A stretch of 64,000 nucleotides of DNA. Source: Capitulum mitella (taxonomy: Eukaryota; Arthropoda; Thecostraca; Pollicipedomorpha; Pollicipedidae). Location: the NCBI GenBank assembly GCA_030062745.1, contig CP099845.1:18826903-18890902 (forward strand), written 5' to 3'. Made by a program: the position numbers and the translations under genes. A model generated the notes under the pieces. It made no database searches, was not told the origin of the DNA, and was given only the letters and a program-made list of their open reading frames with translations. This document shows, piece by piece, positions 3,593-50,076 of the stretch. Position 1 is the first letter of the stretch. The number at the start of each line of letters is the position of its first letter.

Positions 3593-3599
3593 GCTCAGC

Positions 3600-10318: not shown

Positions 10319-10333
10319 GACGACACCAGCAGC

Positions 10334-25545: not shown

Positions 25546-25905
25546 TCAGGGAGAATCGTGACATGGAATGTTAGTTATCACAATTACATTTGCAGTGCTC
25601 CACGAATCATTCTGGCAACTTTGGAAGGTGATCACTTTAGCTTTCGTCGTATTTGCCTTGAGATGGAAACGCTTGCAGATGGCGCAAGAGAAGATCATTG
25701 ACACGAAGAGGAAAATCCCGACGCCGATCGCGACGCCCCCGAAAAGTTTGCTGTGGTTGTTGATGAAATTCTTCACTTCTGTCAGGCATCCGTTTTTGAA
25801 GAGTTTGAAGGGTTTTGTTTGGTCCCTGTCCTTGTAGCAGGAAGCAGGCTCCCCCTCTGGTCGCACGCGCCAGTCATCGGGCTCGTCCACTCCGCAGCAT
25901 TCAAA
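25546..25905 (-). CDS. Tetraspanin A exon 3 (CCG loop, TM4, tail)
   Basis: The exon begins after TTTTGCAG with FECCGVDEPDDW, carries the C-terminal half of the large loop, TM4 (KLFGGVAIGVGIFLFVSM) and CAICK, then reads RFHLKANTTK and onward to TGA at 25546-25548. A GTAAGG overlapping the stop (CCCTGAG/gtaagg) could be a donor for a downstream exon, so the 3' end is less certain than the rest. Confidence 0.85.
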   Translation of the reverse strand, partial: FECCGVDEPDDWRVRPEGEPASCYKDRDQTKPFKLFKNGCLTEVKNFINNHSKLFGGVAIGVGIFLFVSMIFSCAICKRFHLKANTTKAKVITFQSCQNDSWSTANVIVITNIPCHDSP

Positions 25906-28220
25906 CTGCAAAAGGCCAGCAACTTATGAGCAATGCATAAACACCTGTGAAAACTGTGATACATAGATACGGCTTCGCTCGCAGCCATGACATTGGACAG
26001 TAGCAGCAGCACGTGCTCCGTGGGGGGGGGGGGGCACCGGATACTTTTCAAGTCATTTCTTTCTATGCCACGCCATAGGGTTAACATTGAATTTTGTTAG
26101 TTAGGAAGGGGACTGGGGCAACGTGCCTTCCCCCCTCTTCCGCCGCCATTGGGATTGAGCCTGTTTCTTTTAGGTGCGGTTGGCACCGATACACTGTTCC
26201 CTTGTTGGCACCAATTTGCCCAGAACAGACTCGTGCCCCATTAGAAGTGGAGCGTTTCCCGGCAAAGGAAAGGGGACAACGGCTACTTCCCGTCTTTTCC
26301 TTTCCATGCAAAGCCATAGGATTCATGCCCCCTCCCGGTTCCGCCGCCTATTTCCTGCCGCACTGTCGCTGCCGGTCGTCAGTGGCATGAGTCAACGTCA
26401 GTATGACGGCGCCCAAAGGCATGTTTGGCAGTAGCTGCAGGTAGCATTTACATGATGCGACATTCGTGGGGCAGCAAGGACACGTCCACTTCGGAAGCGC
26501 GAAAACGTTACACATGCCTTGCTCCTCCCCCCCCCCCCACCCGATCAGTCATGAACAATAGAGATTGCGCAGAGCCAGTGTTTGGATCCAAGCGATTCAG
26601 GAAGCCATCTTAGTTTTGTCACTTACGTCTTGCTGTAGGGCATCCCATGATTCCCTGGTAGCCTCATTGGTATCATAATTTTTCAAAGTGTCCTTCAAAT
26701 CTGTCTCGATATCGTTCAGGATGGAGTCTGTTCCCATGACGAACGCTGTCACCGCTCCAGCCACCGTCAGCACGAACATGATGAACACCAGGCAGAAGAA
26801 CGTGCCCAGTAGGCACTTGCTCTCCTGAAAAATGGAAGATGCGGTTAGTCTCCATAAGAAAACGATCTTTTGCAACTCTAAGGTCAAACTCGATGTCACA
26901 ACTTAAGTCACAGCTCACCAAGGATCTTCTTAACCCTATTCCCGGCAGGGGGAGCTGAATCCACCCCCCTTGGGTTTTTTGCTTGCCAATTCCAGGCTTT
27001 TTAACGCAGCTTCACAAAACTTGGTGACTTTTCCTACCTATTCCTTCTATGCGCTGTGACAAAATTTCACAATTCTACATTGGTCAGGGGCGGAGCCAGG
27101 CAACGTTTTTGGGAGGCACCTCAGGCCATTTTTGGCTATGTTGAGGGTAAAAGAAAAATGTCTGTAAAAAACAGCGTTTTTAACATAGAACTTAAAACTT
27201 TATATGGATGTATAGCTAAATAGTTGGGCACTGTGCACAGAAAATTTTGTACATCTGAGGTCACTTGACAAGGTCAGGTCAAGGTCAAAAGGAAAAATGT
27301 ATTTTTTTGCAATAATTTCGGCGCCGTTTTTTTAAATGCCGCACCCGGAATGCGTATGACGTAGAAAGATGCCCTCTACTTGTGTACCAAGTTTCAGCTT
27401 GATATCATGTCGGGTCACGGAGCTATCACCTAAAATGTCAGTGCGCGTACCCTATATCGCAATAGCCATAAAATGAAATTTTTGAAATAGAGTGAATTCA
27501 AATGATTGAAAACGTTTACAGATAATATCAAATGCATACGAGATCATTCCAAGTGACCCCAAGGTCACCGGAGGTCATTTAAGGTGAAAGGTCACAAGTT
27601 GATCTGAAGAACGTGTGACCATGACAGTTTCCCCTTTTCATGTCGCTGGCACCGCCTTTGCTAAGATTATACAAACATTGTAATGCGATTTGTACTTCTT
27701 TAGCATAGCATGACTAGCAGAAGCCAAAAAAGTGTTTTTACCATTTTTGTTCATTCTGCTGTTAGAAAACTAATCCCCCTACTTTTGAAACCCTGTGAAC
27801 GCGCATGAATTTTCTCAAAATTTTAGATTTGTGGACCCATGGTAAAAGCCCTACTTATAATCTCTCGATTCATGCCAGATTCATTGAAATCGGTCCATAA
27901 ACAACGGAGTTATAAGAAGTCCAAAAGTACCCCTCATTTTGACATTTTTGCCCCCTGCATCCACAAATGTCAAAATTTTGAAAATTTCTTTTTATAAAAA
28001 TGTAGTTCACGTCACGGCAAATCGATTGCCGTTTGTTGCGATGAAACCGGACGAGTAGTTCTCGAGATCTCAGGGGGGCCGAATCTCTGCCGGGAATCGT
28101 CCATACCGTCTAGCCCTCCGGGAATAGGGTTAAGGGAAGTGCTAGGACCTCGGCCAGGGGTTCTGCGATCTCAGGGGCCTCTTCATTCGGCAGCATGCAT
28201 TACGTCTGTTTTCCAACCAG

Positions 28221-28276
<56 letters not shown>

Positions 28277-28451
28277 AATTAATATATTAGAGCTAATGTT
28301 CGCATTATACATCACATACCTTGGAAATCTCTCGAAACCAAAAGCCTGATCAAAAATGCGGAAAAAACGAGAAGAAGCAGGTGAAACCGCCTGTCTTGAC
28401 CTTCAGTGAGCAAACCATGTAAGGGTTTGCTCACACGAAACCGAAGTGCAC

Positions 28452-28514
<63 letters not shown>

Positions 28515-31500
28515 GAGAAAAACGCAACGATGAAAAACGCGTCACAAGGAAATGAGAAATTGATTCAAAACTGTTTACTCTCAGTTGCATTTATGGACAC
28601 TAATTTCAGGTTGTTATGGAATGCCACACAGTGCAACATGTTATCGGATAAGACGGCCTATAAACCGGGTTCATGCTGTTTACAGACCAAAGGATGCCCT
28701 TCAGGAGGACAGAGGCCCTGCCTGCCGGGTGAAAATCACTTTATAGGGCTCCGATGACCCCTTTACAGGCGGGCAGCTGCAAGGGTTCTTTAAAAGGCGT
28801 GCAAGGACCTCTTTTCGGGGCTCTTTACAGGGCTTCCTCCAGGTACGCTGGGCTTCTTTACAGGCCGGCAGAAAGTTCCTTTATTGGTCAACAAAGGCCC
28901 CTTTACCGGCCAACAGGTTGCCTTTTTACAGGCCAACGAGACTAACCGTTAGGCTGTAGAGTCGGCACCGGGGTCCCTTTAAAGGCCAGCAGAAGGTCAT
29001 CTAAAGGCCCTTAGGCGTACCCTTTACACGCCGGCACGGACACTTTACAGGCTAACCACTCACTCTTTAGAGGCCTGCATGCGTCGTTTACAAGCCAACA
29101 GGGGTGTGTCTGTCCTGTCCCGCCAGAAAATGTCCCAATCTGCAGGTTCGTGTGCGGACTCTTGAGGTCAGCAGGAGCCTCTCTGTGGATCAGCAGGGAA
29201 CTTTTTAGGAACTAACAGGGGGCCTCTTTAAAGTGTTCCTCTAGAAGCCTGCAGGGGGCCATCTGCAGGAGAACACCGGACACCTTTACAGGCTGGCGGG
29301 AGATCCTTTGCATGTCGGCAAGAGGTTTACCTACATGGCCGGAGGCGGGGGCCCTCTTTGCAGGCCAGAAAATGCTTCCTTCACATTCAAGCGGGATACC
29401 TTAGCTGGTAAATTAGCATTAGCTGGCCAGTAGTCCCGTAGTAAAAAGGCCCCTAATAATGGTGTCCCTTGCCCGAGGGACCCCCAAAAGCAGAGCAGTT
29501 AGTAAATGCTTCCTCGCTATGCGCGGAGGGATACCTACCAGCCCAAACCAGGGACCCCTCCGTGCCAAGGGAGGATCTCCAGCCATAAGTGCCCTAATCT
29601 TGGGCGCGCCTCTGAATTTAAGTCTGTGGTAACAATGTGTGTCAAGACAGCCCACGCTCAGCCCACGGTCAGCCCACGGTCAGCCCAAACTCGAGACCTC
29701 TTTAAAATCGCCCAAAACGCGTTAGGAGATAAATGTTGACTAGCTGAGCTCATTGAAACCATCAGACGTCCATCGCATCTGTTACTTTGCACTCCAGAGC
29801 AAGAAACACAAAACGCCACAAAAATACCGCGGAGACAAATGTACATCAAAACCCCAACAAATAGGCACTCAAAATGTTCGTCTCGGACCGCTGAGTCGAA
29901 AAATGCAACACACAACACATTTTAATCATAACATTTTGAGTTAGTGCGAAAAATAACCGTTTTTTTACCCTATGCTTTATTTCCCATTGGATTTAACATG
30001 GGACCCTATGGAACTGATTTTGGCGGACCCCTTCGATTTCGCCCATTTCTTCTACACTAATACCCAGAACCGTCATACACACGAAACCATCATCAGAACT
30101 CCATCGCATTGATATCCACACGGTCAAATCGGGCTCCAAACAATATACGTCAAAAACACATTTTTTAATGTTATTCCAAACCTAGACAAACAGGTACTCA
30201 AAATGTTCGTCTTGTGCCGCTGAGTTCAAAAATAGCGCATGCGTGACATTTTGACGGACACTTTTCGAGTTATAGCGAAACAAAACCGTTTTTTTACCCT
30301 ATGCTTTATTTCCCATTGGATTTAACATGGGACCCTATTGAACTGATTTTGGCGGACCCCTTCGATTTCGCTTCTCTTCATCTCATGGAAACCCATGGCC
30401 TTACATGGGACCCATCGCACCCGACAAGAGAAGTTGGTCGAGGCCTCGGACGCAGAACTTCGTGACGGCAACACTTCGTCGGTGCGAAGTGCCCAAGTGT
30501 TGCGACAAGCAGCGGCAGAACAACGGGCTAAAGACTGCTACTCTCCCAGAGTAATCGAGGACCTAAACATTATGCGACGGATGTCTCACGCTCTCGATGC
30601 TGCCAGCTCGTCCTCTCTGAAAGGTGACATCCACTTCATCGCGGGTGCTCCGCTCATGGTGCATGTTTACCGAAAGTTTTTTTTCCAAAGGTACAGAATC
30701 GCACCGACGGAGCTCCATTTGGACTCAACCGGTTCAGTGACCAAAAAATATGGCGACATGGAGCCCCTCTACTACGCCGTGGTTGCAAAAGGGCATGGTG
30801 GGAACACGTCGTACCCTATAGCCCACTTCCTGTCAGAGCGACATAACGTCCAAGCCATCATCCATTTTCTAATGCAGGTGGCTTACGACTACCGAGTGGC
30901 AAACGGAAATTCAGTATCACTCCGGCCGCCGCGCGTTGTGACGGACTGTTCGTACGCGCTGCTGCACGCCACGTGTCTGGCATTCAATCAAATGGACCTC
31001 CCAGCGTACCTGGACGCATGCTGGAGCACCGCAGTGGAGGGGGGGTGAGCACGCGCGGCCACCAGCTACATCTGTCAGCTTGTGCACCGCGCACATGAGC
31101 CAGCAAGTTTCGTCTGCGATTATCGCCCGCCTAGGGAGGAAAAAGAAAATCGAGCGGCAGAGGCTGATGTGGCTATTTGCACGCATGCAGCAGGCGTCCG
31201 ACTTGGCAAAGCTAGACCGACTGTTCCGGTTCGCGTGTCGGCTGCTGCTGTCGCCGTGCACGCCTGCTCTCGATGTGCCGCTGCTTGACGACGAAATGGA
31301 CACACCGAAGACCAGCCGAAGCCACCCGAAGGCCAATCAGCCAAGGACAGGTGGCAGTCGTACCGACGCTCCACCAAGTTCGGCAATCACTTCGAAGAAG
31401 TGATGAGGCCTGTCGCAAAAGACGCTCAAAGTGAGAACCAAGGCGAAGAACAGAACAGCAGCTACTGCCCACTGCTGCTGTCTTCTGTTATGCCTCTCGC

Positions 31501-34500
31501 CCCTCTGTGGTCGCAGCTGATCACGACAAGGCCAGCATCAAATGCCTGCGTTGAGTCCTGGTTCAAGACCATCAAGAACCAGCTCATGCAGAAGAGGAGG
31601 CGATTGCAGCCCGGCGAGTTCGTCGAGCTCCTGTTGCAAGACAGTTCGGCGCGACAAAAGGAGTCACTCGTCCCACAGCAAAGCTGGAGACATAAAAGGA
31701 CGATGACAAGTGACATGGATGATGTGAAGGAGCAGTGGAAACCCAGAAAAGAAAAGAAACAGAGAAGGTTCACATACCTCCAGAAAGGTTTTCCTTCGTC
31801 ATCTACTGCCTCCATCCACTCAGCAAGGAGCCAGATTACGCCAGCCGAAACTCCATCCGAAACTCCAGCCAAGACTCCAGCCAGGAATGCAGCCAAGACT
31901 CCATCCGAGACTTCACCTGAGACTTCGACCAAGACTCCAGCCAGGAATGCAGCCAAAATTCCATCCGAGACTTCATCTGAGACTCTGGCCGAGGCTCCAG
32001 CTGAGACTCCAGCTGAGACTCCGGCCAAGATCCTGGCTGAGACTCCAGCCAAGATCTCAGCCCAGACTCCATTCAAGACTTCGGCCGAAACTCCAACAGA
32101 GACAAGGAACCAGAGCATCACACCAGCTGTACAGAGCTCCACGAGCGGGAAGGAACCCAGGAAATCGCTGAAGATCGGCAACTTGCTGGTACATTTTACC
32201 GAAATCGACGACCTGCTCATCAGCGGACGCGTACTTCACAGCGAAAGTGTCGCGTGGCTAGATGACAGTGTCATAGACGCCTTTTTGCTGTGTGTCGCCA
32301 ACGCCAGCATTTTAGCAGTCTCAGTTTTCCAGTCCGCGTCGCTCAGCATAATGACTCGGCTGGCCCAGTCCAGACGCCTGGGCACGTACCTCAAGGAGCG
32401 GTACGGCGTCCACCAGACAATGGCATGGCTCGTACCGTTTAACTTGGCGGCGTACGGAGGACCGTTACACTGGGTGTTGTTCGTCGTCGGACACACCGCC
32501 AAACGTGTCGTACAAGGTCTGTCCGAAAAGTAACGAGACTGGCTTTATAAGAACTTTATTAGAAAAAATTGAAAAGTACCAAAGTCGCATTCCTTCAAAG
32601 TAATCCCCTTCCAGTCTGACACACTTGTGCATTCGCCTTTTCCGGAATTCAATACACTCCTGGAAGGCATCTTCTGGGATCTTCCTGAACTCCGTCGTCG
32701 CGGCCGTTTTGATGGAATCACTATCAGGAAAATGGGTTCCCTTCAGAAAAGATTTGATCTTGGGGAAGAGGAAAAAGTCACAGGGGACCAGGCTGGGGGA
32801 ATATGGAGGTTGTTCCAAAGTTGCAATGTTCCTTTCTGCCAGAAACTGGCGAATACTCAGGGCTGTGTGAGCAGGAGCGTTGTCGTGATGGAGCACTCAT
32901 GCGTTGGTTTCCCAAATGCTCCGCCTCTTGTCCCGCACTGATCTCACGAGGCGCCAAAGAATCTCCTTGTAGACGGTTTGGTTCACTGTTTGGCCTTGGG
33001 GTAAGAATTCGAAGTGAACGATGCCTTGAATATCGAAAAACACAATGAGTATCACTTTCACTTTCGACTTCGACTTCCTTGCTTTCTTTGGCCTTGGGGA
33101 TCCAGGACTTTTCCATTCACGACTCTGTCCCTTCGTTTCCGGATCGTACGAGTATTCGCCAGTTTCTGGCAGAAAGGAACATTGCAATTTCGGAAGGACA
33201 TCGCCACCGTCTGCTTTACTTCGGCAACCCGCTGCTGAACATGGTGCTGGATGTGAACAGTAGCGAACTATCGAGCAAGTGTGGCCTGTGGACCGACGAC
33301 CAGACTGAGACTAACCAGCAGCAGAAGCCGCTGTCCAAGGTGTTCGGCAACGGCCGGGTGTCGTTCTGTCCGGGCGGCTCGGCGGAGAACACCACTCGCC
33401 GGTACCGCCGGGTTCTGGGGGAGCTCGGATCGGTGGCCTTCATCGACGCTGTTGGTGTCGACAAGCTCCGTTAGAGGCTGGAGAAGCTGTTCAGCGCGGA
33501 CGGCGTCGGCACCAGATACGTAGTGCACTTGGGCCAGCCCACGGGACGCTTTAAGAACCTTGTGTGTGGTGCGGACCGCTCTTTAGTGAACGGCATCGAC
33601 GGTGCCAATTTCTGCTGACCTGAGCGCGCCTTCGCGTCGCACAGGCTGGCTCTCCTCAGTAGCGACACTTGTGAATATTCTGATGGTGTTTCGTGACGGG
33701 TGACCCGGAGACGACCTTAGAGGTGCTCCGAACCAGCAAACAGCCGGCGTTCAGTTTGTCGGGCAGTATTTCTGCTAACGGCACGCAGCCACTGTCTGCC
33801 AGATGCTGCCCCACGTCACGCTCCTGGTCGGCCACGCGGCCCTGGCGCGCGCTGTCGGCCTCAAGGAGGACGATTTTGACGTGTCGCCGTCGGGATTTTG
33901 CCGGCTTATCGCCGAGACTGCTGTCGTGCGACAAACGGTGGAGACCATGACAAGAGCAGAAGAGTCGGAACCCTCGGTCAAGGAGCTGCAGGATGGGAGC
34001 GTGCCAGATGTGAAGAACATCGTGACTCACACCGCCGAGTCGTTGGTGCTGCTGAACGCTGTCGGCACCTTATCGGTGGCCGTGCTGACAATCTCGCCGT
34101 CTCTGATCGCCGACGGGAATAAACTTGTCTGTTGTTGATGCGTTGTCTGTCATGGTTTGGGCCAGTTTGGAAGCAGATTACAAAGTGTGGTTTTCACCCA
34201 TTTTCTTTGGAGCCCAGTTTCACCGTTTGGATATCAATGTGATGGAGTTCTGGGGGTGGTTTCATGTGTATTGCGGTTCTAGGTACCAATACAGAAGAAA
34301 TTGGCGAAATGGAAGGGGTCCGCCGAAATCAGTTCCATAGGGTCCAATGTTAAATCCAATGGGAAATAAAGCATAGGGTAAAAAAACGGTTCCGTTTCGC
34401 TACAACTCAAAAAGTTTCCGTCGAAATGTTACTTATGCGCTATTTTTGGACTCAGCGGCACAAGACGAACATTTTGAGTACCTGTTTGTCTAGGTTTGGA

Positions 34501-36655
34501 ATAACATTAAAAAATGTGTTTTTGACGTATATTGTTTGGAGCCCGATTTGACCATGTGGATATCAATGCGATGGAGTTCTGATGATGGTTTCGTGTGTAT
34601 GACGGTTCTGGGTATTAGTGTAGAAGAAATGGGCGAAATCGAAGGGGTCCGCCAAAATCAGTTCCATAGGGTCCCATGTTAAATCCAATGGGAAATAAAG
34701 CATAGGGTAAAAAAACGGTTATTTTTCGCACTAACTCAAAATGTTATGATTAAAATGTGTTGTGTGTTGCATTTTTCGACTCAGCGGTCCGAGACGAACA
34801 TTTTGAGTACCTATTTGTTGGGGTTTTGATGTACATTTGTCTCCGCGGTATTTTTGTGGCGTTTTGTGTTTCTTGCTCTGGAGTGCAAAGTACAGATGCG
34901 ATGGACGTCTGATGGTGTCAATGAGCTCAGCTAGTCAACATTTATCTCCTAACGCGTTTTGGGCGATTTTAAAGAGGTCTCGAGTTTGGGCTGACCGTGG
35001 GCTGACCGTGGGCTGACCGTGGGCTGTCTTGACAGACATGTGGTAACATCATCCTCTTCGCTTCTTGGAACGATTCTGGGGTGAAATAAGGCTAGTAATC
35101 TTCTACGTCAACGGAGTTTTTGTTTGTTTGTTCCTTTGTTTGTGAGTTAGGACACCCAGCCTCTTGGGCTCAGGTGTCTAGAGTCCTGCGTTAAATCCTC
35201 TGACTAATCAGTCGTCAGACAGTCAGGTCTTGTCACTACAAGAAAGTAGACGGACATTTCAAGGTCCGACGTTTGTGTTAAGATTATGTCAACACATTCT
35301 GAGTAAGACAAAATAACACCAGCTGACATCCCATCACTCTGTGCACCAAGCGGATGCCGTAACCAGAGACGCATGAAACGTGAAAATTGCCACAATAGCT
35401 GAAAAACCCCACATCTGCCACATTTCCAATTCGGCCAAATTTATCCTACCCGTTCAAATCATACGCTGATCGCCTCCTTCCGCGGCCAGTGAATGGGGCC
35501 GCCAGCATGTTTACAGTGGCTTCGTATGCTGCATGCCTGGCGTTGTATTTCTTTCAAATAATGATTATTTGTCACACGTCTGCTATGATTTTAACCAATA
35601 TCTGTCACCAACGCTGGTCGGCAACTTGGAAGGTTTGTGCACTTCAGGTTGAAACAGTCATTCAGAACTGAGTTTAAGGGACTGGAGTCCAGAATATCAC
35701 GGCATGACTTGATGGTTCGACGTGACTTGCAGTTCTTTTTCGTTTCAAAAGGTGTGGAAAGCAGTAGTATCTAGTATGGCAAATTCCAAGGTATAATCAC
35801 TAAAAATGTTGCCGTAATTTTAAGAAAGGAGCACAGGGAGTACAGGGCTGCTATGGTGTGTCGTAACCATTTGCTCGCGCTACAGTCGCAACATGGCGAC
35901 CGTGGCGGCCGCAGAGCGAGCCGAGCGTCGATTTCATCACATCGATAGCGGCGTTATCACAGCAGAATGGGCCGTGGTTGAGCTGTCAGATAAGGCCTGC
36001 CGGCCGCATCCTGCCACCACTGACGGTCACGGAAAGGTCAAACCTGAACTGACGAACGCTGGCAATGCCGTGGCTTATTCCGCCAGGGAGTTCAAAAGAC
36101 TATGACTTGAGCTTGTTTGATGTAGTAAGTACAGATGTAGGAACAGTTTGGCCACAGTTTTTGAATATGAAACAATGTTAGTCTTCGAGCAGACGCTTGA
36201 GGTTAAAGCATTCACACTCAGTTCGATGCTCCACATTTAACTAAGATCCATTAAAATATTACAACACAGGCGTGAATGTAGCCAAACTGGAGCCAACCAA
36301 TGCCAGCTGGAAAGAATGGCACATTCATGGACTGTTTCAGCGTAGCGGAGGAATTCCTCCGTTTCACCTGTGTCGTAAGTTGGGTCACCAAGACGTCACA
36401 CATGGTGACCTCTGATGAACCTACCCAGAAGGCTCCGCAGCAGCCGAGGAAGCTGACGATGACGATGATGGAGCCGGCCACGATGATGAGGATCGCTGTT
36501 CCCGTGTACAGCTCCGTCGAGATCAGGCGGCTGATCTTGGAGTTGTCGCCCACCAGCGAGCTAATGCCGATGCCCAACAGCACGGCGCCGCCGACCAAGA
36601 TGACCAGGTTGACGAAGGCGAAGAAGTACTTGATGAGGTTGCCGCAGCCGTCCAT
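25546..36655 (-). CDS. Tetraspanin A, three coding exons (unit A copy)
   Basis: Exons on the minus strand: 36655-36425, 26824-26627, 25905-25546. All junctions are GT-AG and phase 0 (donors GTAGGT and GTAAGT; acceptors TTTTTCAG and CTTTTGCAG). The 262-residue product has four TM segments (about 9-33, 50-72, 82-107, 197-220), the TM2-end motif GCCGAFWESKCLL rebuilt exactly across intron 1, and a large extracellular loop with CCG at 146-148 plus Cys166 and Cys183. This is the four-cysteine class typical of CD9/CD63-like tetraspanins, plasma or endosomal membrane organisers of partner proteins. The start MDGCGNLIKYFFAF matches the family; an upstream in-frame ATG at 36760 is unlikely. Intron 1 is 9.6 kb because of a transposon insertion. 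After CAICK the copy has a 41-residue tail where copy B ends after three residues. Confidence 0.9.
26627..26824 (-). CDS. Tetraspanin A exon 2 (TM3 and first half of large loop)
   Basis: 198 bases, 66 codons, from ESKCLLGTFF to SWDALQQD, followed by GTAAGT. Residues 1-30 (TM3) are identical to copy B. The loop part (GTDSILNDIETDLKDTLKNY onward) differs from it at six positions. Confidence 0.9.
26934..28129. mobile_element. piggyBac-like MITE in tetraspanin A intron 1
   Basis: Flanking TTAA at 26930-26933 and 28130-28133 surrounds inverted ends CCCTATTCCCGGCAGGG and CCCTCCGGGAATAGGG. TTAA target sites with CCC-starting inverted repeats are the piggyBac signature. The 1.2 kb interior encodes no transposase and carries several AGGTCA motifs (around 27260-27290 and 27560-27590). 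It was present before the duplication, since unit B has it at the same place. Confidence 0.85.
28222..28513. repeat. Two (AT)n microsatellites (unit A)
   Basis: AT runs at 28222-28260 (followed by GT repeats) and 28455-28513. Both are longer or differently interrupted than their unit B counterparts, as expected for slippage after duplication. Confidence 0.9.
28740..29400. repeat. Degenerate CTTTACAGGCCGGCAG-type minisatellite (unit A)
   Basis: Variants of CCTTTACAGGCCAGCAGG recur at about 30-45 base spacing. It is intronic in tetraspanin A and duplicated in unit B. Confidence 0.7.
29634..30371. repeat. Left terminal inverted repeat of the 5.4 kb element
   Basis: Starts AATGTGTGTCAAGACAGCCC, then the 11-bp subrepeats at about 29647-29690. 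Two internal units of about 330 bp each contain ACCCTATGCTTTATTTCCCA and ACTGATTTTGGCGGACCCC. The transposase frame begins 24 bases inside it. Confidence 0.9.
30395..32512 (+). pseudogene. DDE transposase fused to a Ulp1-like protease, frameshifted and truncated
   Basis: The frame opens at 30395. Asp110 (LHLDSTGSV) and Asp184 (PRVVTDCSYALLHA) are the first two catalytic acids; Glu in SNACVESWFKTIK (about 31553) fits as the third. The frame breaks in a seven-G run at 31040-31046, continues one frame over (LCTAHMSQQVSSAIIARLG), and returns to the first frame near 31290 (STKFGNHFEEVMRP). A Glu-Thr-Pro-Ala/Lys repeat linker of about 95 residues follows (31840-32110). Then comes a Ulp1/C48-like segment: VAWLDDSVIDAFL, and VPFNLAAYGGPLHWVLFVV with the catalytic His. 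It is cut by a mariner at 32513, so the protease Asp and Cys are absent. The transposase N-terminus may also be missing, because the TIR lies immediately upstream. Confidence 0.8.
31835..32110. repeat. 12-bp minisatellite GAGACTCCAGCC encoding a Glu-Thr-Pro-Ala linker
   Basis: About 20 degenerate copies of GAGACTCCAGCC, in phase with the transposase frame. The repeat keeps all other frames open, including a 252-codon minus-strand frame that is an artefact. Confidence 0.85.
32513..33193 (-). pseudogene. mariner (DD34D) transposase relic, 3' part, nested in the 5.4 kb element
   Basis: The end CAAGGTCTGTCCGAAAAGTA lies after a TA at 32511-32512. The minus-strand frame gives YDPETKGQSREWKSPGSP, KVKVILIVFFDIQGIVHFEF (first Asp), LHHDNAPAHTALSIRQFLAE (second Asp) and LVPCDFFLFPKIKSFLKG (third Asp); exactly 34 residues separate the last two, as in true mariners. 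A TGA stands where Trp is normal, just before VLHHDNAP. The N-terminal DNA-binding half is missing and replaced by an inverted fragment of the element itself. Confidence 0.9.
33145..33193 (+). repeat. Inverted fragment of the mariner at its broken end
   Basis: GAGTATTCGCCAGTTTCTGG and the following bases repeat, in opposite orientation, the mariner segment at about 32823-32863 (the part encoding SIRQFLAERNIA). This marks a local rearrangement at the mariner/adenosine kinase boundary. Confidence 0.8.
33194..34136 (+). pseudogene. Adenosine kinase-like intronless pseudogene fragment inside the transposon
   Basis: Pieces in different frames read in order like adenosine kinase (PfkB family; ATP-dependent phosphorylation of adenosine to AMP): YFGNPLLNMVLDV, KPLSKVFGNGRVSFCPGGSA then ENTTRRY, GSVAFIDAVGVDKL, QPTGRFKNLVCGADRSLVNG, TGDPETTLEVLRTSKQPAFS, MLPHVTLLVGHAALARAVGL and CRLIAETAVVRQTVETM. 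Stops (for example at 33472 and 33616) and frameshifts break it, and the C-terminal DTxGAGD catalytic segment is not found. No introns interrupt the alignment, which suggests a retrocopy. Location between the Ulp1 segment and the right inverted repeat suggests capture by the element. Confidence 0.75.
34304..35038. repeat. Right terminal inverted repeat of the 5.4 kb element
   Basis: Inverted copy of 29634-30371, ending GGGCTGTCTTGACAGACA. A further partial copy of the about 330-bp internal unit lies just inside it (about 34200-34303), so the right arm holds one more unit than the left. Confidence 0.9.
35050..36240. other. Tetraspanin A intron 1, proximal part
   Basis: Matches unit B 51370-52560. 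A 70-codon plus-strand frame at 35893-36105 has a good start context and persists in unit B with one residue change, but nothing else supports it as a gene. Confidence 0.4.
36425..36655 (-). CDS. Tetraspanin A exon 1 (TM1, small loop, TM2)
   Basis: From MDGCGNLIKY to GCCGAFW, then donor GTAGGT. 77 codons, differing from copy B by one residue (VIV versus VII in TM2). Confidence 0.92.
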
Positions 36656-36794
36656 GGTGAGGCGCTGGAGGGGACGGACGGCAGGTGCGCAGAACGTTCC
36701 GACAGAGCATGCCGACCGACGAGGCGAGTCTGGGCTATCTGACCGTCGAAGGCGTCGCAATATGCATTACCGGCCACGGCCTATCTAATCATAG

Positions 36795-38859: not shown

Positions 38860-40980
38860 TTTCAGACGACGATGAAGACATTCTGCAGGCTTACCTGCTC
38901 AGATGTGTAGACATATACTTTTGGCTGACGCCTCTGGACGTGCGTAATTTGACGTGCCAGTGGGTGGTGTTTAGAAAGATGAAAATGACATGGGCTCAAA
39001 AAAAGTCATGGGCTGAGAAAGAGAGGGCCGGCTGGCGTTGATTGGTTTGGAGCCTTTCTGAAACACGTCATCCCGCGCTCTCTGTTCGGTCTTCCCAGGG
39101 TATCAGTCTGTCAAGGGCAACCAGCTTCAGAAAAGAAAAGGTGGGAGGTTTTTCGATAGGTTGGAGAGCGTACTGAACAAACATAAGCTGGAGCAATCCA
39201 GAATTTGGAACTTGGACGAGACGGGTTGCACAACCATTCAAATGCCGAAGAGCACAGTGGCCAGCAAGATGGTCAAGCAGGTGCGAGGAGTGACCTCAGG
39301 GGAACGTGGTCAACTGTTTACAATGTGTGAGGCCGTCGGTACCATTGAGAACACTGTGCCTCCGATGTTCGTTCTCTCACGAGTTAAGCACCATGAGTGG
39401 TTCATCCGAGGCGTACTGACTAACTGTGTCGGGCGCCTACAAGCCCGGCTGGATAAAGGAGCCAGACTTCACTCTTCGTGGAAAATTTCACCAAACACGT
39501 AAGACCCAGCACCCACTCAACAGCGTTCTTGCCGCTGGACAGTTATTCACGTCACCTGTCTGTTGAAGTTCTGAACCTGGCGAAGAAGAGCGGGAGTATC
39601 ATGCAGTTCTTTCCTCTCACTGCTCCCATTGACCACGGCCGCTTGATCGGAGCGTCTTCGGGCCATGCAGGAGAAGCCGTTCCACCCGGCTAGACTGTAG
39701 ATCTAGGTGGGTGGACGCCAGCGTCGCCATCCTGGGAAGCCAGCGACGATATATGGAATCCCAGAGGTCGCTTCGGATGCGTGGAAAATAGCTACAGCTC
39801 CGACAAACATCACCGGCGCATTCCACGCGGCCGAAATAAGCCTCTTCAATTCGGATAAGTTCACGGATCAGGACTTAGTGCCGAGTTATGACACCGACCA
39901 GAACTCAGGACGCGGGCGCAGTGGGCCCCTCGTATGCCAGTGTGGAGTGCCCATCGCAAACCGCCAGCGCGGACCTATCGCAAAAAGTGGGATTTCTTTT
40001 TTGTGAGATGAAACCTCGGAAATTGTTTTTGGAGCAGCTGAAAGCTTCATGGGGTATGAACATCGGCATAAAAAACTGATGAGATTAGATGTAGCAAACA
40101 CATAAGATTCGCCTGTTAAACATGGCTAAGTGTGAAAATAAATAGGAGGAAAATTTGTGGAAGCACCGAAAGAGAAATCATTGATATCTGTAGTGACAAT
40201 GACATGTTTTTGAGGAAAGAAAAAATAATCATGCGGCCACACTGTTCCCAGAAATATTCTCCCAAGGTTTGGCAATTGAGGAATGTTGGCACATCCTGTC
40301 CTGCACTTGCAGGACGCCAGCGCGGCAGACCGGCCGCAGGACGCCAGCGCGGCAGACCAGCCGCAGGACTCCAGCGCGGCAGACCCTCGCAGGTCGTCAG
40401 TATGGGCACCACAAGCCGCAAGAGTCTACAACATCCAGTAACGGAGACGATTCGATGGGGCTTGGGCGCGTGCTGTGTCCGGAAATCATTTGGACTCAGT
40501 TCAAAGCCGGTCCGAGAAAGACAAACACACACGGGGAAAAAGAGAGAAGGTCGGCGAGCCTGGCAGAAACACGGGGGAAGAGAGCACAGCAGGAGGAACA
40601 AGAACGGCGTAAATGCAAGGAAAGGAAAGGAGAACATAGTCACAGCGGCTCTACAACAAAGGGAAAGTGCTCCAAATGAAAGGGAAAGAAGAGGATGCAG
40701 AGGAGGTTTTAGTTCTCTGGCAGTGATACGACGTGTTTTGCCTTGTGTGCGTCGAAAGCTTTGGAAACAGTAAACCTAGGGAAAAGTGGATATGGTGCCA
40801 AAAGTTCGCGATGCGGGCCCATGAAGCTTGTACAACACTTGAGGATGCCCAGGCTGCCTCCAACGTCTGTGAGGACTGTGAGGACTCAGACTCGTAAGCC
40901 TGTGTGCAGTAAAAGTTTGCTCAGGAAGCAGCTCAGGAAGGTGTGCGACATTAACCACAGAAGCAGCCCTTCATTTTAAC
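38860..40980 (+). pseudogene. pogo/Tigger (CENP-B superfamily) transposase relic, unit A
   Basis: Across several frames: SDDDEDILQAYLLRCVDIYF (N-terminal domain), DRLESVLNKHKLEQSRIWNL followed by DETG (first DDE Asp), PPMFVLSRVKHHEWFIRG, then FLPLDSYSRHLSVEVL where the usual LLLDNHxSH motif is altered, NPGKPATIYDIPEV-like and FTDQDLVPSYDTDQ. A Cys-rich PHD-like tail follows near 40720-40900. Stops and frameshifts are numerous. An in-frame 27-bp repeat lies at 40311-40391. Confidence 0.8.
40311..40391. repeat. 27-bp VNTR, three units (unit A)
   Basis: Three copies of AGGACGCCAGCGCGGCAGAC-CGGCCGC encoding a nine-residue QDASAADRP-type repeat. Unit B has four copies. Confidence 0.9.
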
Positions 40981-41879
40981 CACTGTTTTCTTGGGAAAAA
41001 ACAATTTGTTCATGTAAACTCGTATGCAGCAAGCTGCACAAGAAGGTTTGTGTGATATGAAGCACACAAGCAATCTTTCGATATGATGGTAGAATTGACC
41101 TTGTGCTGTATTACAATTCACGTCACGTCCGAGGTCAATTCTGACATGTGCAGGGACAATTTGGCGCGATTTTTTACCCGTTAGAATGGGATTTAGAATG
41201 GGATAGAAATAGGGATAGAATAGAAATTTAGATTTAGAATGGGAGTTTTCGTTATTTCTCGCCACCACATTGTTAAGAAAACATCAAACTTCATCATTCA
41301 ATTAGGGAAAAATTCTAAGTTCGAAAGCTTCCTGAGTGTATGTATGCATGCATGTGTGTGTGTATGTGTGTGTGTATGAAAACAAACCAGGTATCTTCCA
41401 TAAATCGTCTTGTTTTAGAACAACTACCGTCGAAGAAAACAAAATGTCCTAAATCAGTTGAGAAAGTCGCATTTGGGGGAGGTTAGATTGTGGGCCCCTC
41501 GATCTTTCCCACAAATCATTTACACAAAACGATAACCCTGGTCATGGCGTCCCCGTAGTGTTAATGGGGTTCCCTCACCATAAGGGGCCCTTCATTCTTT
41601 AGGACCCCTCGAAAAAGTCCTGGTTACTCCACTGTGATGTAACTTGATTTTTTCAGAGGACTACTCTGGAATATTGTCTGGTGGGATTTACGAACTGAAA
41701 TTCCTCATTAAAGTTGGGAATGCTTTCCAGATGCCGCAGATGGTGTAGCACACATTAGGCTTTAGGCAAAGTAAGTGCAATTCTAGCAGACGGATTGACC
41801 TTGAAAGACAAGCATCTTTTCTCTTACAGGAGAATGGCATATCTTCGCGTTGCGGAAAGCTGGCACAGATAACACTTGA

Positions 41880-42127
41880 CAGCTTTCTGTCCGACGACGG
41901 CTTCTGAGGCTTCAGTGATCACATGCACGGCTCGCTGGGAGTCTGATCGACTGAGAGTCTGAGCTCGTGACGCAGTCGCCTCTGCTGGCAGCGTCTCCAG
42001 CGAGGACATCGGGGCATTCTCCATTCTCCGATGGAGTTCCAGAACTATCCGGTATACATGCAGGCAGTGGAGCGAGCCGTGCATGTGGCCATTGAAGCCT
42101 TAGCAGCCGTCGTAGGACAGAAAATCG
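41880..42127. repeat. Head-to-head inverted repeat with coding-like arms (unit B)
   Basis: Counterpart of 20330-20574: minus-strand arm QRAVHVITEASEAVVGQK, plus-strand arm ERAVHVAIEALAAVVGQK. Confidence 0.7.
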
Positions 42128-43964
42128 CCATGGCTTCATCTGCGCCCGCCGTCAGCATCGCAGAGCTATGCCGTTATTCTGCAGCAAGAAGGCTTTTCGT
42201 CTCAAAGTCTACCCATCGGTTGAAAATGTACCTGTTTTGTCAAAATCAAAATTTCAGAGTGATCATCTCAAAAATTTCAAGTTGCAGCACCATGACCGTT
42301 CTCGATTTCCAGGTTTTGTCCTCATTTGTGCCGTAGTTTAGAACGTTCGTAGCGCCGTAGCTTTTGATGGAATCAGACGAACTCCCTGAAAAGTGCACTC
42401 GTGCAATGTGCACCTCAGACTACCCTAGTCGCGTGTAGGATGACTGAATAAAACGCTCACAAATATTAATTGCCGATGCACGGCCCCCTCCGCCCGGCCG
42501 CCGTCCGCAGCCTGCTGTTAACTCACCGGGACGCTGCCGCTTGGTGCCTGGAGACTTCAACGTCAGGAGGTACTACCGCGTTCCCCTTGCTTCGACTGGT
42601 GGCACCAATAAGCGCCTTCGTGAATTTTTCGACATTTCCTGAATTTTAGGCCACTTGCGTCAGTTTTTATTACTCTCGCCAGGAAAATTTTGTCTGATGA
42701 CGCACCCTAGCGTAAAAGGGCCCAAGCCTTGAAGTTTTACCCAGCCTGAATATTCTGGTTGCTGTGTGGCGAACGAGCAGCAGGCTGAGGATGCTCATAC
42801 TCATGCGTGTCAAGCGGGCCGTTTCAACGGCCGTAACGCAAGTCTGTTAACTGGACTCTGGCACGGACGTGTTGGCCAAGCGCTCCCCTGCTGCAGCACC
42901 GCTTACTTGACAAGTGCTGCTAGTCGCTATGCCGTGTTACAACAGTGCAGCGTGTCTGCGTATTAAAAGATCAATCGTGTGAGACCGTCCAGTTATACCG
43001 GATGTCATTGCACAATTGATGGGCAACCAAGACGAGATCAAGACCATGTGCTAACGGGACGAGGGGGAGAGGGGGAGCAAATCTCTACCCGTATGACCAA
43101 ACCTCCCCGCAAATGTTGGGCTCTCCTCGAATTGATGTTGCAAATGTTGGGCGCCTGTTTGTTCCTTCACTTTAGGCAAATGAACAATTTTTAATGTTTA
43201 GAAAACAAAAAATGCGCTTTTTGCCCGAAGAGGGCAAACTACATGCTGGCCCCCCTTTTTGAGCGAAAGATGGGGCCATGGCCTTGATGCCCCTCGATCC
43301 TCCAGTGTGGCCAATATCGACGGAGAAAATAGGCATGCGTTTCGGCCCAAGCGTCTCGAACTGCACAGGTGAGGCTCCGGAGGCAGGAACATGAGGTCGA
43401 CCGGTGGCCGTGGTGCCCCTCCTCCATACACACACAAAAACAAACACGGAAAACGGACAGCTGAATGTCACCGCTGAGAACGCTTCAGTCTGAGTTCAAC
43501 TTGCAATGAGTAGTCCGTTTTGGTTGTTTGCTTTGCACATGCACTGGTCACTGGCGCCACAGACTGGACCAAAGATAAAAAATTGAACTTAACGTTAGTA
43601 TAAAGGAGCCATGATTCGTCTTATTCCTTTCAGGAATCAATTGCGATGAGCAAGAATGTCGTGAACTTATATTTCACAGTTCTTTTTTACCCGCGCACCA
43701 CCGTCGGTCGGTTTGGAACATGCGCGACTGGGGGGGGGGGGGGGCAGTTGGCGGCCCCGCTCTAAGACGTGGGGACGTGGGGATAAATGCAGTTTTTCAT
43801 TTGATAAATTGTAGCAAAAAAAACATAAGATTCCGTTGGTCAAAATGAAGTGGGCTAAATCCGTCGAGAAATCCTCATTTGAGGGGAGGGGAGGTTGTCG
43901 GACACTCGGCTTGGCCTCTAATCATTTACAGAAATCGAAATCCCTGTCACAGACAGTCAGAGGA

Positions 43965-44640
43965 ACCTGCAGCTGACCAGGGACGCTCCAGCGTCGGTCA
44001 GAACAGCCCCAGAGGCGTTCTGAGAAGTTCCATGGCCGGTCAGAAGCTACGAAGTACGTGGCACGGTCATACGGGGCCACTGGAACACTAGAGACAGGTG
44101 TGTAGAATCCTTTATAGTTTGGGGGTCTCCAGTCTCCCAACTTGCAGGTCAGCCCTCCCAGATCTGGCAGACAGCCTCCGCCCCCAACTTTTTTTCTCAA
44201 AATAGCAAAACAAAATGACCCAAATCCGGGGAGAAATCACTCTTTGGGAGTACCCTAGGCTGATCGACCCAAGGCTAAGTCCGTTCCCCCAACTGATTCT
44301 GGGATCCTACACCCCTGGCTAGAGACGATCTCTCAGGATGCGATGAGAGAAGCCCAGTGCGCAGTGACGGTCAGGGAGCCCATGGGATGGACAGGGTGGC
44401 TCCTGGGACGATCCGGGACGGCTGAAAGCATGGAGGCCCGTCAGAGTGCCCCCAGGGCCGGTCGGGGAGGGCCTGGAGACGGTAGGAGGGCTCAGAGACG
44501 ATCAGAGAATCGCCAGGATACGGACAGAGGAGTCCAGAGACGACCCGGGAGGCTCCAGGTGTGTGCGGAAGGACCCAGTGACGACCAGGAGGGATAAGAG
44601 GGTCGATCAGAGTGACCGGGGACGGCCAGGGAGAACCAGG
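43965..44640. repeat. Degenerate minisatellite GACGGTCAGGGAGGCCC type (unit B)
   Basis: Counterpart of 22385-23065 with a few substitutions and a small insertion near 44067. Confidence 0.65.
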
Positions 44641-45978
44641 ATAGGTCATACAGTAGACACCTACGGGAACCATCAGTTTCATTGCACTGTGCCGTTGCTC
44701 ATAACCTCGGTCACTCAAAAATCAGCAAATGAAACGAAGGAGACTGCAGTCCTGAAGAGGTGTGGTAACGCCGTCAGGTCAGCTTAGTCCACTGAGCCTC
44801 GGCACAGCGCAGCAGTTTCTTTCCATTGTCGTACTCAAATGCTCCGTTATTTATCATCCGGGTGGCAAGAAAAATCGACGGATGAAACAAAGAGGAAAGA
44901 AAATCTTGTGATAGTTGAAACCTTGTGATAGCTGAAATCCTGTGATCGTGCGCGTCAGCCGCATCATGGAAAGCTGAAGATGAATAGAATTTTGATAAGA
45001 TGAGACAATTCGGGGGCAGCAAATGATGCAATAAAAAAGTAAAAGCAATGAAAGAATTGAAGGTAACCATTTCCTTCCACTGAAAATGGAACGCAAATTA
45101 ATTTTTGACGCAAAATAATTTTTTCATACCTTAAAAAACAAGGCGGAATAATGGTCAAAATACAGTGTACAAACCAACTCAAATTAGGTAAAATGGAACG
45201 ACTGAAAGCTTACATTAATTTTCCTCACAACTCAGAATATTGGTAAAGCGTATTTTGTATACTTGATGGAGCTTTACTTGAACGAGGGCTTACGCTGTTA
45301 ATTTATTCGTGCTGGATCGCAAAAAGCCCCATTGTACACTGAGCCGACTTTTCGATAAAACACAGTATCACTACTGCCTGGCCATCTCGGTATATCCATA
45401 AGCAGAAATAACTTCGGCGGAGGTCGCTGGCTTGTCCGAACTCGGCGGCGGTGGCCGACACGTCGAGGGCATCCGTGTGGAGCCTGTGGACGAAGCACAG
45501 CATAGCGGTAAGGTGCTATGTGCTATGCTATGCTAAGCACAGCATAGCACAGCACAGCAAGCCAAGGCTTTTCAGTTTTGGCTGAGAAATGGCGGTACCC
45601 AGGTACGTTTAGGTGTGCCTGAGCTCCGACAAGGTGCGCTCTACACGAACTGTCACGTGGTGAGAGAACGACCACAATCTACAGACCGAGAGCTGAGATA
45701 TGGCCTTGCGAGAATGACGCATTTTACCTGCAAACCCAATGGGCTGGTAGATTTAACACGCCGTAGACCTCAGTGCTGCCAACTGACTAGGGGGAGGGGG
45801 GAGTCGTTCTTGACTTTCGTCCTTCACCAGTTAAATCTACATTTGAAATGAAGTAAAATAGTCAAGAAGCGGTCCTGCCTGAAATACAGAATACAGCTGC
45901 CTTGCAAATGCGTTTTTATTTTTATCTTTGGTATAGCCATGGCAGCGTCTTAATATGTTTGCTGGCACTGCTCGATCT

Positions 45979-46724
45979 TAGCAGGTGTTTTTGATGCAGT
46001 TGCTCATGACGCAGTCCTGGGAAAGTCCCAGCGGCTGCAGATATCCCAGGAGTGCTTCAAAGTCGGTGACAGACATTCAGGGCCAAGTGCGCTGCAGATC
46101 GACGCGTTTCAAGGGTCGTGCCTTGGTCCACTGCTTAATAACAATGTCACTCGCGAACTGGCCTACCACGTCTCTACTGAGATCGACAGCTTCCGCATCT
46201 ACACTGTTCGATACGCCGATAATATCCAGCAGGTGATCACTGGCCCAAGATGTACGGTGCTTGATATGACAGCCACGCTGGGAAACGCCTTCGATTCTCT
46301 ACGTGTGGCTGTTTCTTCATAGTACGAAGGCAAACGCTAAAAACCCAGCTCATGTTGTTAGGTAGCAGCCGCAACGTCAGCGGATCACGGATCCAGGCAC
46401 GGGGTTTTTCGCTCAGCAGACTCTTGCCCTTCAAGAAAGACTAGAAACATAGGTGTGTCTTAGGCGGGAGCCGCATATGTACAGCGCTGTAACAGAGTGT
46501 AGCGGCCTATTCATACTCATGGGTCTTCTTTGAGCCAGCAGCGTCCTTCCACCACACCTTCTAGCTCGTCTCATCAAACCTCTGGTGCTGTCTCACATCA
46601 GATATTGCTCGCCAGGTAATGGAAACGCATTTGCATCTAGTCAGCTAAAGAAAATGAATAAATTAATAAATAAATGCACTTCGCCACTCGCGTGCTTTCA
46701 TGTCGACGCACATGATATCTGAAG
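45979..46724 (+). pseudogene. Non-LTR retrotransposon reverse transcriptase relic (unit B)
   Basis: Same relic as 24412-25157, with FQGSCLG and YADN. The stops are shared, so the relic was dead before the duplication. Confidence 0.75.
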
Positions 46725-47561
46725 TGATATGATCATTCAGACGGTTAACTGCTAAAACCTAGTCCCTGTCGCTGATGCCGGTATGCTGCACGGTACAGAC
46801 TATTTCAACGTCAAGTTCTTGTCAGTCATAATCAGTAACGCGGCCCGGATTTTCGTAAGGGGATCAAGGCTAAAAGAAAAGGGGCTGATACTTCTCTTAA
46901 CATGGGGAATTAGCCCCGGAGCGCTCACCTGGGGATTCCGGAAATGAAATTTTCATTACATTTTACGTTAAATGCGTTTGTCTTTTACAGAAACCATTTA
47001 TGACAATAGACACTTATTGGGGGCATCGGACCCTAAGAGAGGGTCATTTGACCCCTCTGGCCCCCCTCCGGCTTCGTTACTGACCATAATATCCACTGTG
47101 CCTTACCTCAGGGAGAATCGTGACATGGAATGTTAGTTATGACAGTTACATTTGCAGTGCTCCACGAATCATTCTGGCAACTTTGGAAGGTGATCACTTC
47201 AGCTTTCGTCGTATTTGCCTTGAGATGGAAACCCTACCACAGAGCCAAAAGCTTAAAGAGCTGAGATAAGCTGCACATGTCAGATTTAACGCTGTATTGT
47301 AGCATCACCAAAGTTATCAAAATATTATGCGCCGATTTTGGGATGTTCCATGGCCTTTCTACTTCATATGGTATGCTAAAACACATCATGTGCTTATCTC
47401 AGCCTAATTGTTGACGCTCTGTTGCCGCTCATCGCCATAAAATGCATGCCCATAGGATTGCCGAACTACAAGGACAAGCTATATGCGCGATGCAAACCAC
47501 TACGGGACAGAGGGGAAGCGGAAACCTCCTCGGTTTTCTGCCCAATCTCGGTACGACAGAA

Positions 47562-47792
47562 TCAGCGGATCGACTTGCAGATGGCGCAAGAGAAGATCAT
47601 TGACACGAAGAGGAAAATCACAACGCCGATCGCGACGCCCCCGAAAAGTTTGCTGTGGTTGCTGACGAAATCCTTCACTTTTTTCAGGCATCCTTTTCTG
47701 AAGGGAAGACTTTTGTCACTGTTCTTGTAGCAGGAGTTGGGCTTTTCCCTTGGTGCCCAGTCGTTGGGTCCGTCCACTCCGCAGCATTCAAA
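47562..47792 (-). CDS. Tetraspanin B exon 3 (CCG loop, TM4, tail)
   Basis: 76 codons plus stop, from FECCGVDGPNDW through TM4 to CAICKSIR. The 344 bp that follow on the minus strand (47573 down to about 47230) are absent from unit A. Confidence 0.88.
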   Translation of the reverse strand, partial: FECCGVDGPNDWAPREKPNSCYKNSDKSLPFRKGCLKKVKDFVSNHSKLFGGVAIGVVIFLFVSMIFSCAICKSIR

Positions 47793-50017
47793 CTGCAAAA
47801 GGCCAGCAACTTATGAGCAATGCATAAACACCTGTGAAAACTGTGATACATAGATACGGCTTCGCTCGCAGCCATGGCATTGGACAGTAGCAGCAGCACA
47901 TGCTCCGTGGGGGGGGGGGGCACCGGTTACTTTTCAAGTCATTTCTTTCTTTGCCACGCCATAGGGTTAACATTAAATTTTGTTAGTTAGGAAGGGGACT
48001 GGGGCAACGTGCCTTCCCCCTCTTCCGCCGCCACATTGGGATTGAGCCTGTTTCTTTTAGGTGCGGTTGGCACCGATACACTGTTCCCTGGCTGGCACCA
48101 ATTTGCCCAGAACAGACTCGTGCCCCATTAGAAGTGGAACGTTTCCCCGCAAAGGAAAGGGGACAACGGCTACTTCCCGTCTTTTCCTTTCCATGCAAAG
48201 CCATAGGATTCATGCCCCCTCCCGGTTCCGCCGCCTATTTCCTGCCGCACTGTCGCTGTCGGTCGTCAGTGGCACGAGTCAACGTCAGTATGACGGCGCC
48301 CAAAGGCATGTTTGGCAATAGCTTCAGGTAGCATTTACATGATGCGACATTCGTGCGGCAGCAAGGACACGTCCACTTCGGAAGCGCGAAAACGTTACAC
48401 ATGCCTTGCTCCTCCCCCCCCCCCGATCAGTCATGAACAATAGAGATTGCGCAGAGCCAGTGTTTGGATCCAAGCGATTCAGGAAGCCATCTTAGTTTTA
48501 TCACTTACGTCTTGCTGTAGGGCATCCCATGATTCCTTGGTAGCCTGATTGGTATCATAATTTTTCAAAGTTTTCTTCAGTTCTGTCTCGAAATCGTCCA
48601 GGATGGAGTCTGTTCCCATGACGAACGCTGTCACCGCTCCAGCCACCGTCAGCACGAACATGATGAACACCAGGCAGAAGAACGTGCCCAGTAGGCACTT
48701 GCTCTCCTGAAGAATGGAAGATGCGGTTAGTCTCCATAAGAAAACGATTTTTTTCAACTCTAAGGTCAAACTCGATGTCACAACTTACGTCACAGCTCAC
48801 CAAGGATCTTCTTAACCCTATTCCCGGCAGGGGGGAGCTGAATCCGCCCCCACTCGGGTTTTTTGCTTGCCAATTCCAGGTTTTTTAACGCAGCTTCACG
48901 AAACATGGTGAATTTTCCTACCTATTCCTTCTACGCGCTGTGACTAAATTTCACAATTCCACATTGCTCAGGGGCGGAGCCAGGCAACGTTTTTGGGAGG
49001 CACCTCAGGCAATTTTTGGCCATGTTGAGGGTAAAAGGAAAATGTCTGCCAAAAACAGCGTTTTTAACATAGAACTTAAAACTTTATATGGTTGTATAGC
49101 TAAATAGTTGGGCACTGTGCACAGAAAATTTTGTACATCTGAGGTCACTTGACAAGGTCAGGTCAAGGTCAAAAGGCAAAATTTTTTTTTTGCAATAATT
49201 TCGGCGCCGTTTTTTTAAATGCCAGACCCGGAATACGTATGACGTAGAAAATAGCCATAAAATGAAATTTTTGAAACAGAGTGAATTCAAATGATTGAAA
49301 ACGTTTACAGATAATATCAAATGCATACGAGATCATTCCAGGTGACCCCAAGGTCACCGGAGGTCATTTAAGGTGAAAGGTCACAAGTTGATCTGAAGAA
49401 CGTGTGACCATGACAGTTTCCCCTTTTTCATGTCCCTGGCACCGCCTTTGCTAACATTATACAAACATTGTAATGCGATTTTTACTTCTTTAGCATAGCA
49501 TGACTAGCAGAAGCCAAAAAAGTGTTTTTACCTTTTTTGTTCATTCTGCTGTTAGAAAACTAATCCTCCTATTTTTGAAACCCTGCGAACGCCCATGAAC
49601 TTTCTCAAAATTTCTCAGCTTATAAGTAGGGCTTTCTCAAAGCCCTACTTATAATCTCTCGATTCATGCCAGATTCATTGAAATCGGTCCATAAACAACG
49701 GAGTTATAAGAAGTCCAAAAGTACCCCTCATTTTGACATTTTTGCCCCCTGCATCCACAAATGTCAAAATTTTGAAAATGTCTTTTTGTAAAAATGTAGT
49801 TCACGTCACGGCAAATCGATTGCCGTTTGTTGCGATTAAATCGGACGAGTAGTTCTCAAAATCTCAGGGGGGGGCCGAATCCCCGCCGGGAATCAACCAT
49901 ACCGTCTAGCCCTCCGGGAATAGGGTTAAGGGAAGTGCTAGGACCTCGGCCAGGGGTTCTGCGATCTCAGGGGCCTCTTCATTCGGCAGCATGCATTACG
50001 TTTGTTTTCCAACCAGG

Positions 50018-50076
<59 letters not shown>

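Follow-up and report, generated by a model that had tools for sequence, protein, structure and literature searches.

Why should two neighbouring genes be nearly identical along most of their length and yet differ sharply in a single exposed domain? The question arises in a 64-kb window (the whole stretch of DNA that we analysed) on contig C7 of the Capitulum mitella genome, where two tandem units, A and B, each contain a tetraspanin gene that is complete in three exons, lies on the minus strand and has GT-AG splice sites, phase-0 introns and an intact reading frame. The units differ by 3.1% mismatches over 15,869 aligned columns, and the coding differences gather in the large extracellular loop (LEL); it is with their loops that tetraspanins bind partners and pathogens. 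We tentatively favour the reading that A and B are an ordinary four-cysteine tetraspanin in tandem, with two older, functionally different loop versions in units that have otherwise been homogenised.

Both predicted proteins fall squarely within the family. Against the PF00335 profile, A and B score 171.3 and 168.8 bits (cut-off 32.1) over profile positions 1-224 of 225, and both carry the tetraspanin signature in the form FECCG...SCY...GC, that is, CCG and at least four loop cysteines. The solved structures nearest by sequence to copy B are CD53 (5e-23), CD9 (2e-21) and CD81 (7e-20). Two further genes, found by searching the 477 Mb of the genome in 16 contigs, serve as relatives: gene C, an older third copy, which lies outside the window in the same orientation (window coordinates ~69.2-71.6 kb, its exon 3 ~21.7 kb beyond that of B), and gene D, on contig C9, which has its introns at the same positions as A and B. 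The six-cysteine type a pattern (PxxCC plus a further loop cysteine) is found in D, which reads CCG-DW-PSSCC-C-DGC, and is absent from A, B and C, which have SCY instead; relative to D, these three genes have lost the fourth and fifth loop cysteine. Net loop charge also differs (A -8, B -1, C -6, D -3), which is suggestive only.

The contrast between the loop and the rest of the protein was evident segment by segment in the counts of synonymous and non-synonymous changes. A sequence-only reading of this DNA had reported a single residue change in exon 1, identity in the half of exon 2 that encodes the third transmembrane segment (TM3), a single residue change in TM4 and about 2% divergence in intron 2, and the counts agree: one non-synonymous and no synonymous change in exon 1, 0 of 90 bp in the TM3 half, one change of each kind in TM4, and 15 of 714 aligned bases (2.1%) in intron 2. 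Its tally for the loop half of exon 2 was likewise exact, with 8 substitutions (7 non-synonymous and 1 synonymous) changing 6 residues. For the exon-3 loop it had given about 17 residue changes and two small indels; the two gaps are there, of 2 and 3 residues with the frame kept, and the residue count rises to 19, the product of 30 substitutions in 49 aligned codons (147 bp), 24 of them non-synonymous and 6 synonymous by the Nei-Gojobori method. In aggregate, 38 of the 41 coding differences fall in the LEL, which contributes 39% of the coding bases that were aligned (binomial P = 1e-12).

The exon-3 loop is also the most divergent 134-bp window of the entire 15.9-kb aligned unit, with 31 mismatches. 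It forms a dense block with sharp edges in which non-synonymous changes, synonymous changes and indels occur together. Exon 3 has all six synonymous changes and both gaps within its first 39 alignment codons, and the segment that we take to be helix E, by analogy with known tetraspanins, carries five non-synonymous changes and no synonymous one. The second most divergent 134-bp window (27743-27876, in intron 1; 21 mismatches) was considered as a non-coding counterpart of this island and set aside, being largely a hairpin-type replacement in B. There, at ~27815-27845 in A and 49610-49640 in B, the B sequence has been replaced by a hairpin-forming, inverted copy of the neighbouring TTATAAGTAGGGCTTT, the pattern left by template-switch mutations.

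Divergence between the units is uneven by region, ranging from 1.45% to 8.1%. At the low end (~1.5%) are a large part of intron 1 and a 1-kb stretch of 3' flank, the part of intron 1 adjoining exon 2 reaches 4.4% (21 of 475), and positions 40300-41328 form the most divergent end (78 of 959, 8.1%). For 40760-41328, unit B is the sole full-length relative in the genome (80% identity), with one further partial match of 180 bp on contig C15. Across 60 non-coding windows of 250 bp, divergence is overdispersed (mean 7.3, variance 31, P = 4e-26), and a single age for the whole unit would not fit these values. The unit-wide alignment misplaces some intron gaps, so that intron 2 counts 23 of 715 in the coarse alignment and 15 of 714 in a finer one. 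As local background we used 2.2%, obtained from intron 2 (coarser count) and the 1 kb of 3' flank without the 4.4% stretch of intron 1, and took 4.4% as the alternative.

Measured in this way, the exon-3 loop departs from the background in both classes of change. At synonymous sites, 6 of 27.5 differ, about tenfold over the 2.2% background (P = 4e-5; P = 0.0016 at 4.4%). Because synonymous sites are raised over the local background, the core of the exon-3 loop seems to predate the sequence on either side, and replacement changes may have been added around this core. Non-synonymous change in the same loop also exceeds non-coding divergence (P = 2e-15 at 2.2%, 2e-9 at 4.4%), and that in the exon-2 loop does so with P = 0.0035 at 2.2% and 0.09 at 4.4%. 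Were the loop as old as the most divergent end (8-10%), the non-synonymous changes (24 of 119.5 sites) would still lie over the neutral expectation (P = 8e-5 to 1.4e-3) and the synonymous ones would be borderline (P = 0.03 to 0.06). The sequence-only reading had proposed diversifying selection after tandem duplication, to be refuted if synonymous and intronic divergence next to the loops matched the non-synonymous, or if one unit proved an assembly artefact. Its contrast between the loop and intron 2 stands, intron 2 being at 2.1%; its expectation for synonymous sites does not, since in the exon-3 loop the synonymous proportion of differences (pS, 0.22) is much the same as the non-synonymous one (pN, 0.20; Fisher P = 0.8). 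With pS and pN about equal, a simple burst of change after recent duplication, with a non-synonymous to synonymous rate ratio (dN/dS) above 1, does not explain the exon-3 loop. The exon-2 loop (7 to 1) and helix E (5 to 0) lean towards non-synonymous change, on 13 changes only (binomial P = 0.49). New beyond the sequence-only reading are the raised synonymous sites, the uneven divergence of the unit with the 4.4% stretch of intron 1, gene C and a 340-bp indel after TM4.

Scaling by the distance between A and C separates the segments further. The ratio of A-B to A-C distance (Jukes-Cantor) is 0.48 for the exon-3 loop, 0.13 for the exon-2 loop, 0.09 for TM4, 0.02 for exon 1 and 0 for TM3, so that on this scale the exon-3 loop has diverged ~5 times as much as TM4 and ~25 times as much as exon 1. 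Fisher tests of loop against non-loop give P = 1.6e-7 for the exon-3 loop and 0.02 for the exon-2 loop. Because both this scaled divergence and the non-coding comparison are far higher in the loop, weak constraint alone hardly explains the exon-3 loop. Selection for different loops is supported by the clustering of the differences in the exposed loop and, for exon 3, by a level far over that of the local introns. A duplicate of another tetraspanin on the same contig provided one control pair (L014 and L015, ~12.66 and 12.70 Mb; a partly inverted segmental duplicate ~42 kb apart with 92.5-95.6% identity): around its loop exon 3 of 201 printed columns mismatch and there is no island, in a pair whose matched frame carries a stop.

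We then asked on which copy the changes fell. Among 22 differences examined, 9 base changes are A-derived and 9 B-derived with C as outgroup, and the split is 9 and 5 with a pseudogene fragment, E, as outgroup; with C and D together it is 7 and 8, leaving 15 of 30 unclear. The loop does not align with certainty to C, D or E, and for E the exon-3 part was aligned separately and its intron-2 counts were left unused. Base changes on both branches argue against a burst in one copy, which we set aside on the strength of this approximate balance, and still leave room for a loop imported from a sister lineage. Counted as residues, the changes of the exon-3 loop are not balanced, with 6 A-derived, 1 B-derived and 12 of 19 unclear. 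The fragment E itself (locus L028, ~4237-5031, contig C13) is a decayed exon 2, intron 2 and start of exon 3 with frame breaks; the spots at which B falls short of A in length are also those at which bases are missing from the loop of E.

A source for the loop was sought as well. Conversion of the loop from another paralogue, the alternative offered by the sequence-only reading, found no support: no donor was recovered from the genome with the DNA of the A and B exon-3 loops or of A exon 2, or with A exon 3 as protein, in searches that scored best candidates only and in which exon 2 of B was not searched alone. The A loop DNA matches only itself and B (77%), and the B exon-3 DNA matches only A, B and C; as protein, the A exon-3 domain finds, besides itself, B at 73%, C at 54% and five others at 50% or below. 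A template-switch origin of the loop block was likewise rejected, as none of the 11- to 14-mers specific to either loop is repeated, in inverted or direct orientation, within the 2.4 kb around that of A or the 2.7 kb around that of B. Over the whole window, one 15-mer from the loop of B (47693-47707) has a single second occurrence, at 32737-32751 inside the element inserted in unit A; this is probably chance, with ~0.03 expected over the 15-mers of both loops (estimated from 1.3e-4 per word).

Several explanations have to be weighed against these results. The reading that we tentatively favour starts from what is observed: divergence that matches the LEL, raised synonymous change in the exon-3 loop, uneven divergence along the unit and intact frames. 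From these we infer homogenising exchange, selection and different partners. Exchange between the copies, by gene conversion or unequal crossing-over, would keep or make the rest of the unit nearly identical, and exchanges that erased the loop difference would be selected against because each loop would bind a different partner. If the true age of the unit were that of its most divergent end, the middle would have been homogenised and the loops would have escaped. A number of points weigh against this account. The evidence for exchange is indirect and comes from the genomic sequence of one assembled haplotype. The ratio of non-synonymous to synonymous change within the exon-3 island is not above random (binomial P = 0.8), and the non-synonymous excess of the exon-2 loop hinges on the background chosen. 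Taking the most divergent end as yardstick was a post hoc choice, and the overdispersion is somewhat inflated by coarse gap placement and by the single hairpin event. Gene C is only a remote relative whose loop is close to saturation, and the lean of residue changes to copy A would suit faster change in A. Finally, two alleles would produce the same pattern, overdispersion included.

This last point makes a strong rival, though in itself a doubtful one, of the view that the assembly has set two haplotypes of a single locus in tandem as A and B, with the loop as an old balanced polymorphism of one tetraspanin gene. The overall mismatch of 3.1%, with 250-bp windows outside the loop ranging from 0 to about 10%, would fit alleles of a highly polymorphic animal; the inserted element is present in one unit only; and by sequence alone the layout is not distinguishable from real duplication. 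Against it, the window contains no undetermined bases (Ns), and the units abut exactly at 41328/41329 in a clean join whose two sides share no overlap usable by an assembler. The L014/L015 duplicate, given its spacing, partial inversion and identity, also indicates that duplicates of such age are not solely misplaced alleles. A recent duplication after which positive selection rapidly altered the loop alone, one point change at a time, was the first proposal of the sequence-only reading; it is unlikely and probably did not act alone. It gains from the non-synonymous leanings of the exon-2 loop and helix E, from the low divergence of the intron between the islands and from the 6-to-1 lean to copy A among the 7 polarised residues, and it meets the tenfold synonymous excess of the exon-3 loop, an objection that multi-base mutations could soften; no loop-specific 11- to 14-mer recurs nearby. 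That one copy received its loop block by conversion, whether from a further paralogue or from an allele, seems quite unlikely to us: the dense, sharp-edged block of both kinds of change and indels and its random-like ratio of the two are what import would leave, and the balanced branches would fit a sister-lineage source too, but any donor must since have disappeared or lie outside the assembled haplotype. Relaxed constraint on the loop with nothing selected is very improbable; a near-random ratio in the exon-3 island is consistent with it, but it does not push divergence ~ten times over adjacent non-coding DNA, and the frames, CCG and loop cysteines are kept.

The copies differ in one further coding feature, the cytoplasmic end. 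Copy A lacks 340 bp that follow TM4 in B and reads on for 41 residues past CAICK, so that it is predicted to gain a 41-residue tail. B ends in CAICKSIR and D in CAIMKSIF; because the KSIR of B resembles the KSIF of D, the short tail is probably ancestral and the loss would have occurred in A. Coordinates of the genes, islands and units are collected in Table 1.

Table 1. Features of the two tandem tetraspanin units, in window coordinates
Feature	Position	Strand	Basis
Exon-3 divergence island of A (partner in B 47662-47770)	25760..25883	-	Base-by-base alignment, codon table
Exon-2 divergence island of A (partner in B 48537-48598)	26655..26716	-	Base-by-base alignment, codon table
Copy A exon 1 (TM1, small loop, TM2)	36425..36655	-	Gene model
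Copy A exon 2 (TM3 and first part of LEL)	26627..26824	-	Gene model, codon table
Copy A exon 3 (CCG, variable loop, TM4, predicted 41-residue read-through tail)	25546..25905	-	Gene model, codon table
Copy B exon 1	52749..52979	-	Gene model
Copy B exon 2	48509..48706	-	Gene model, codon table
Copy B exon 3, ending CAICKSIR stop	47562..47792	-	Gene model; tail like that of paralogue D
340 bp in B directly after TM4, missing in A between 25670 and 25671	47233..47572	-	Alignment
Tandem unit A (with 5.4-kb inserted element)	19776..41328	.	Self-BLAST and unit alignment; sharp ends
Tandem unit B	41329..57624	.	Self-BLAST and unit alignment; adjoins A directly

The units also differ by an insertion in intron 1 of copy A, a 5.4-kb element (29635-35039) with 737-bp terminal inverted repeats that are 97% identical. 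It is flanked by a 9-bp target duplication, GTGGTAACA, and B has the empty site; the length of this duplication is reminiscent of Mutator-like elements, and the three open frames tested in the element gave no Pfam match. Intron 1 further contains a high-copy repeat (26929-28061), whose part at 26929-27400 matches 38 other sequences at 90-91% when the best 40 of 7179 candidates are scored, and a 77% copy of the whole repeat lies near copy C. Inverted repeats flank copies A and B, at 12281-17766 and at ~1720-4910 of locus L009, in three long pieces of 89-90% identity. Elsewhere in the window, open frames on the minus strand carry a DEAD-box helicase domain (3-1187) and a trypsin domain (9428-10363).

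The nearest published parallel that we found is TSP-2 of the flatworm Schistosoma japonicum, whose subclasses are described as mostly identical and defined by a variable region of the LEL (PMC3104969), with dN/dS reported as 1.186 for the LEL and as 0.447 when the entire coding sequence is taken (PMC10012309). As in A and B, the sequences are near-identical outside the LEL. In the flatworm, however, the region that names the subclasses is described as short (residues 155-158), whereas the island here spans most of the exon-3 loop and includes indels, and two genomic units with their introns can be compared. The pair is thus a known type of case with an unusually clear genomic context. Selection on tetraspanin coding sequence has been reported for vertebrates after whole-genome duplication (PMC2965184) and for tsetse and other flies (PMC4592607); old genes were compared there, whereas A and B share 95-99% identity over most of their length and only the loop departs from this among the coding segments. 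Table 1 of PMC2965184 gives CD53 as lacking the fourth and fifth cysteine of the six-cysteine pattern. The four loop cysteines of A and B show the same absence, in paralogues of another genome than CD53, CD9 and CD81; because D keeps six cysteines, the loss in the line of A, B and C was probably independent of that in CD53. A literature search for barnacle and tetraspanin gave no study of a barnacle tetraspanin among the matches listed.

A pair that is near-identical save for its outer face, and for the tail of A, amounts to a natural loop-swap experiment. If our favoured reading of two older loop versions on homogenised copies is true, the locus would be a case of selection resisting gene conversion at the scale of a domain. 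A bolder version, which we think rather unlikely, holds that A and B, whether paralogues or alleles, represent two old recognition specificities (for pathogen, gamete or self) kept distinct because selection on the loop is balancing or favours divergence, while the rest is kept uniform, with the new cytoplasmic tail of A in addition; outer partner and inner wiring may then have changed together. Should A and B instead prove to be alleles, the loop would be an old, probably balanced, polymorphism, and the gene a candidate balanced recognition locus.

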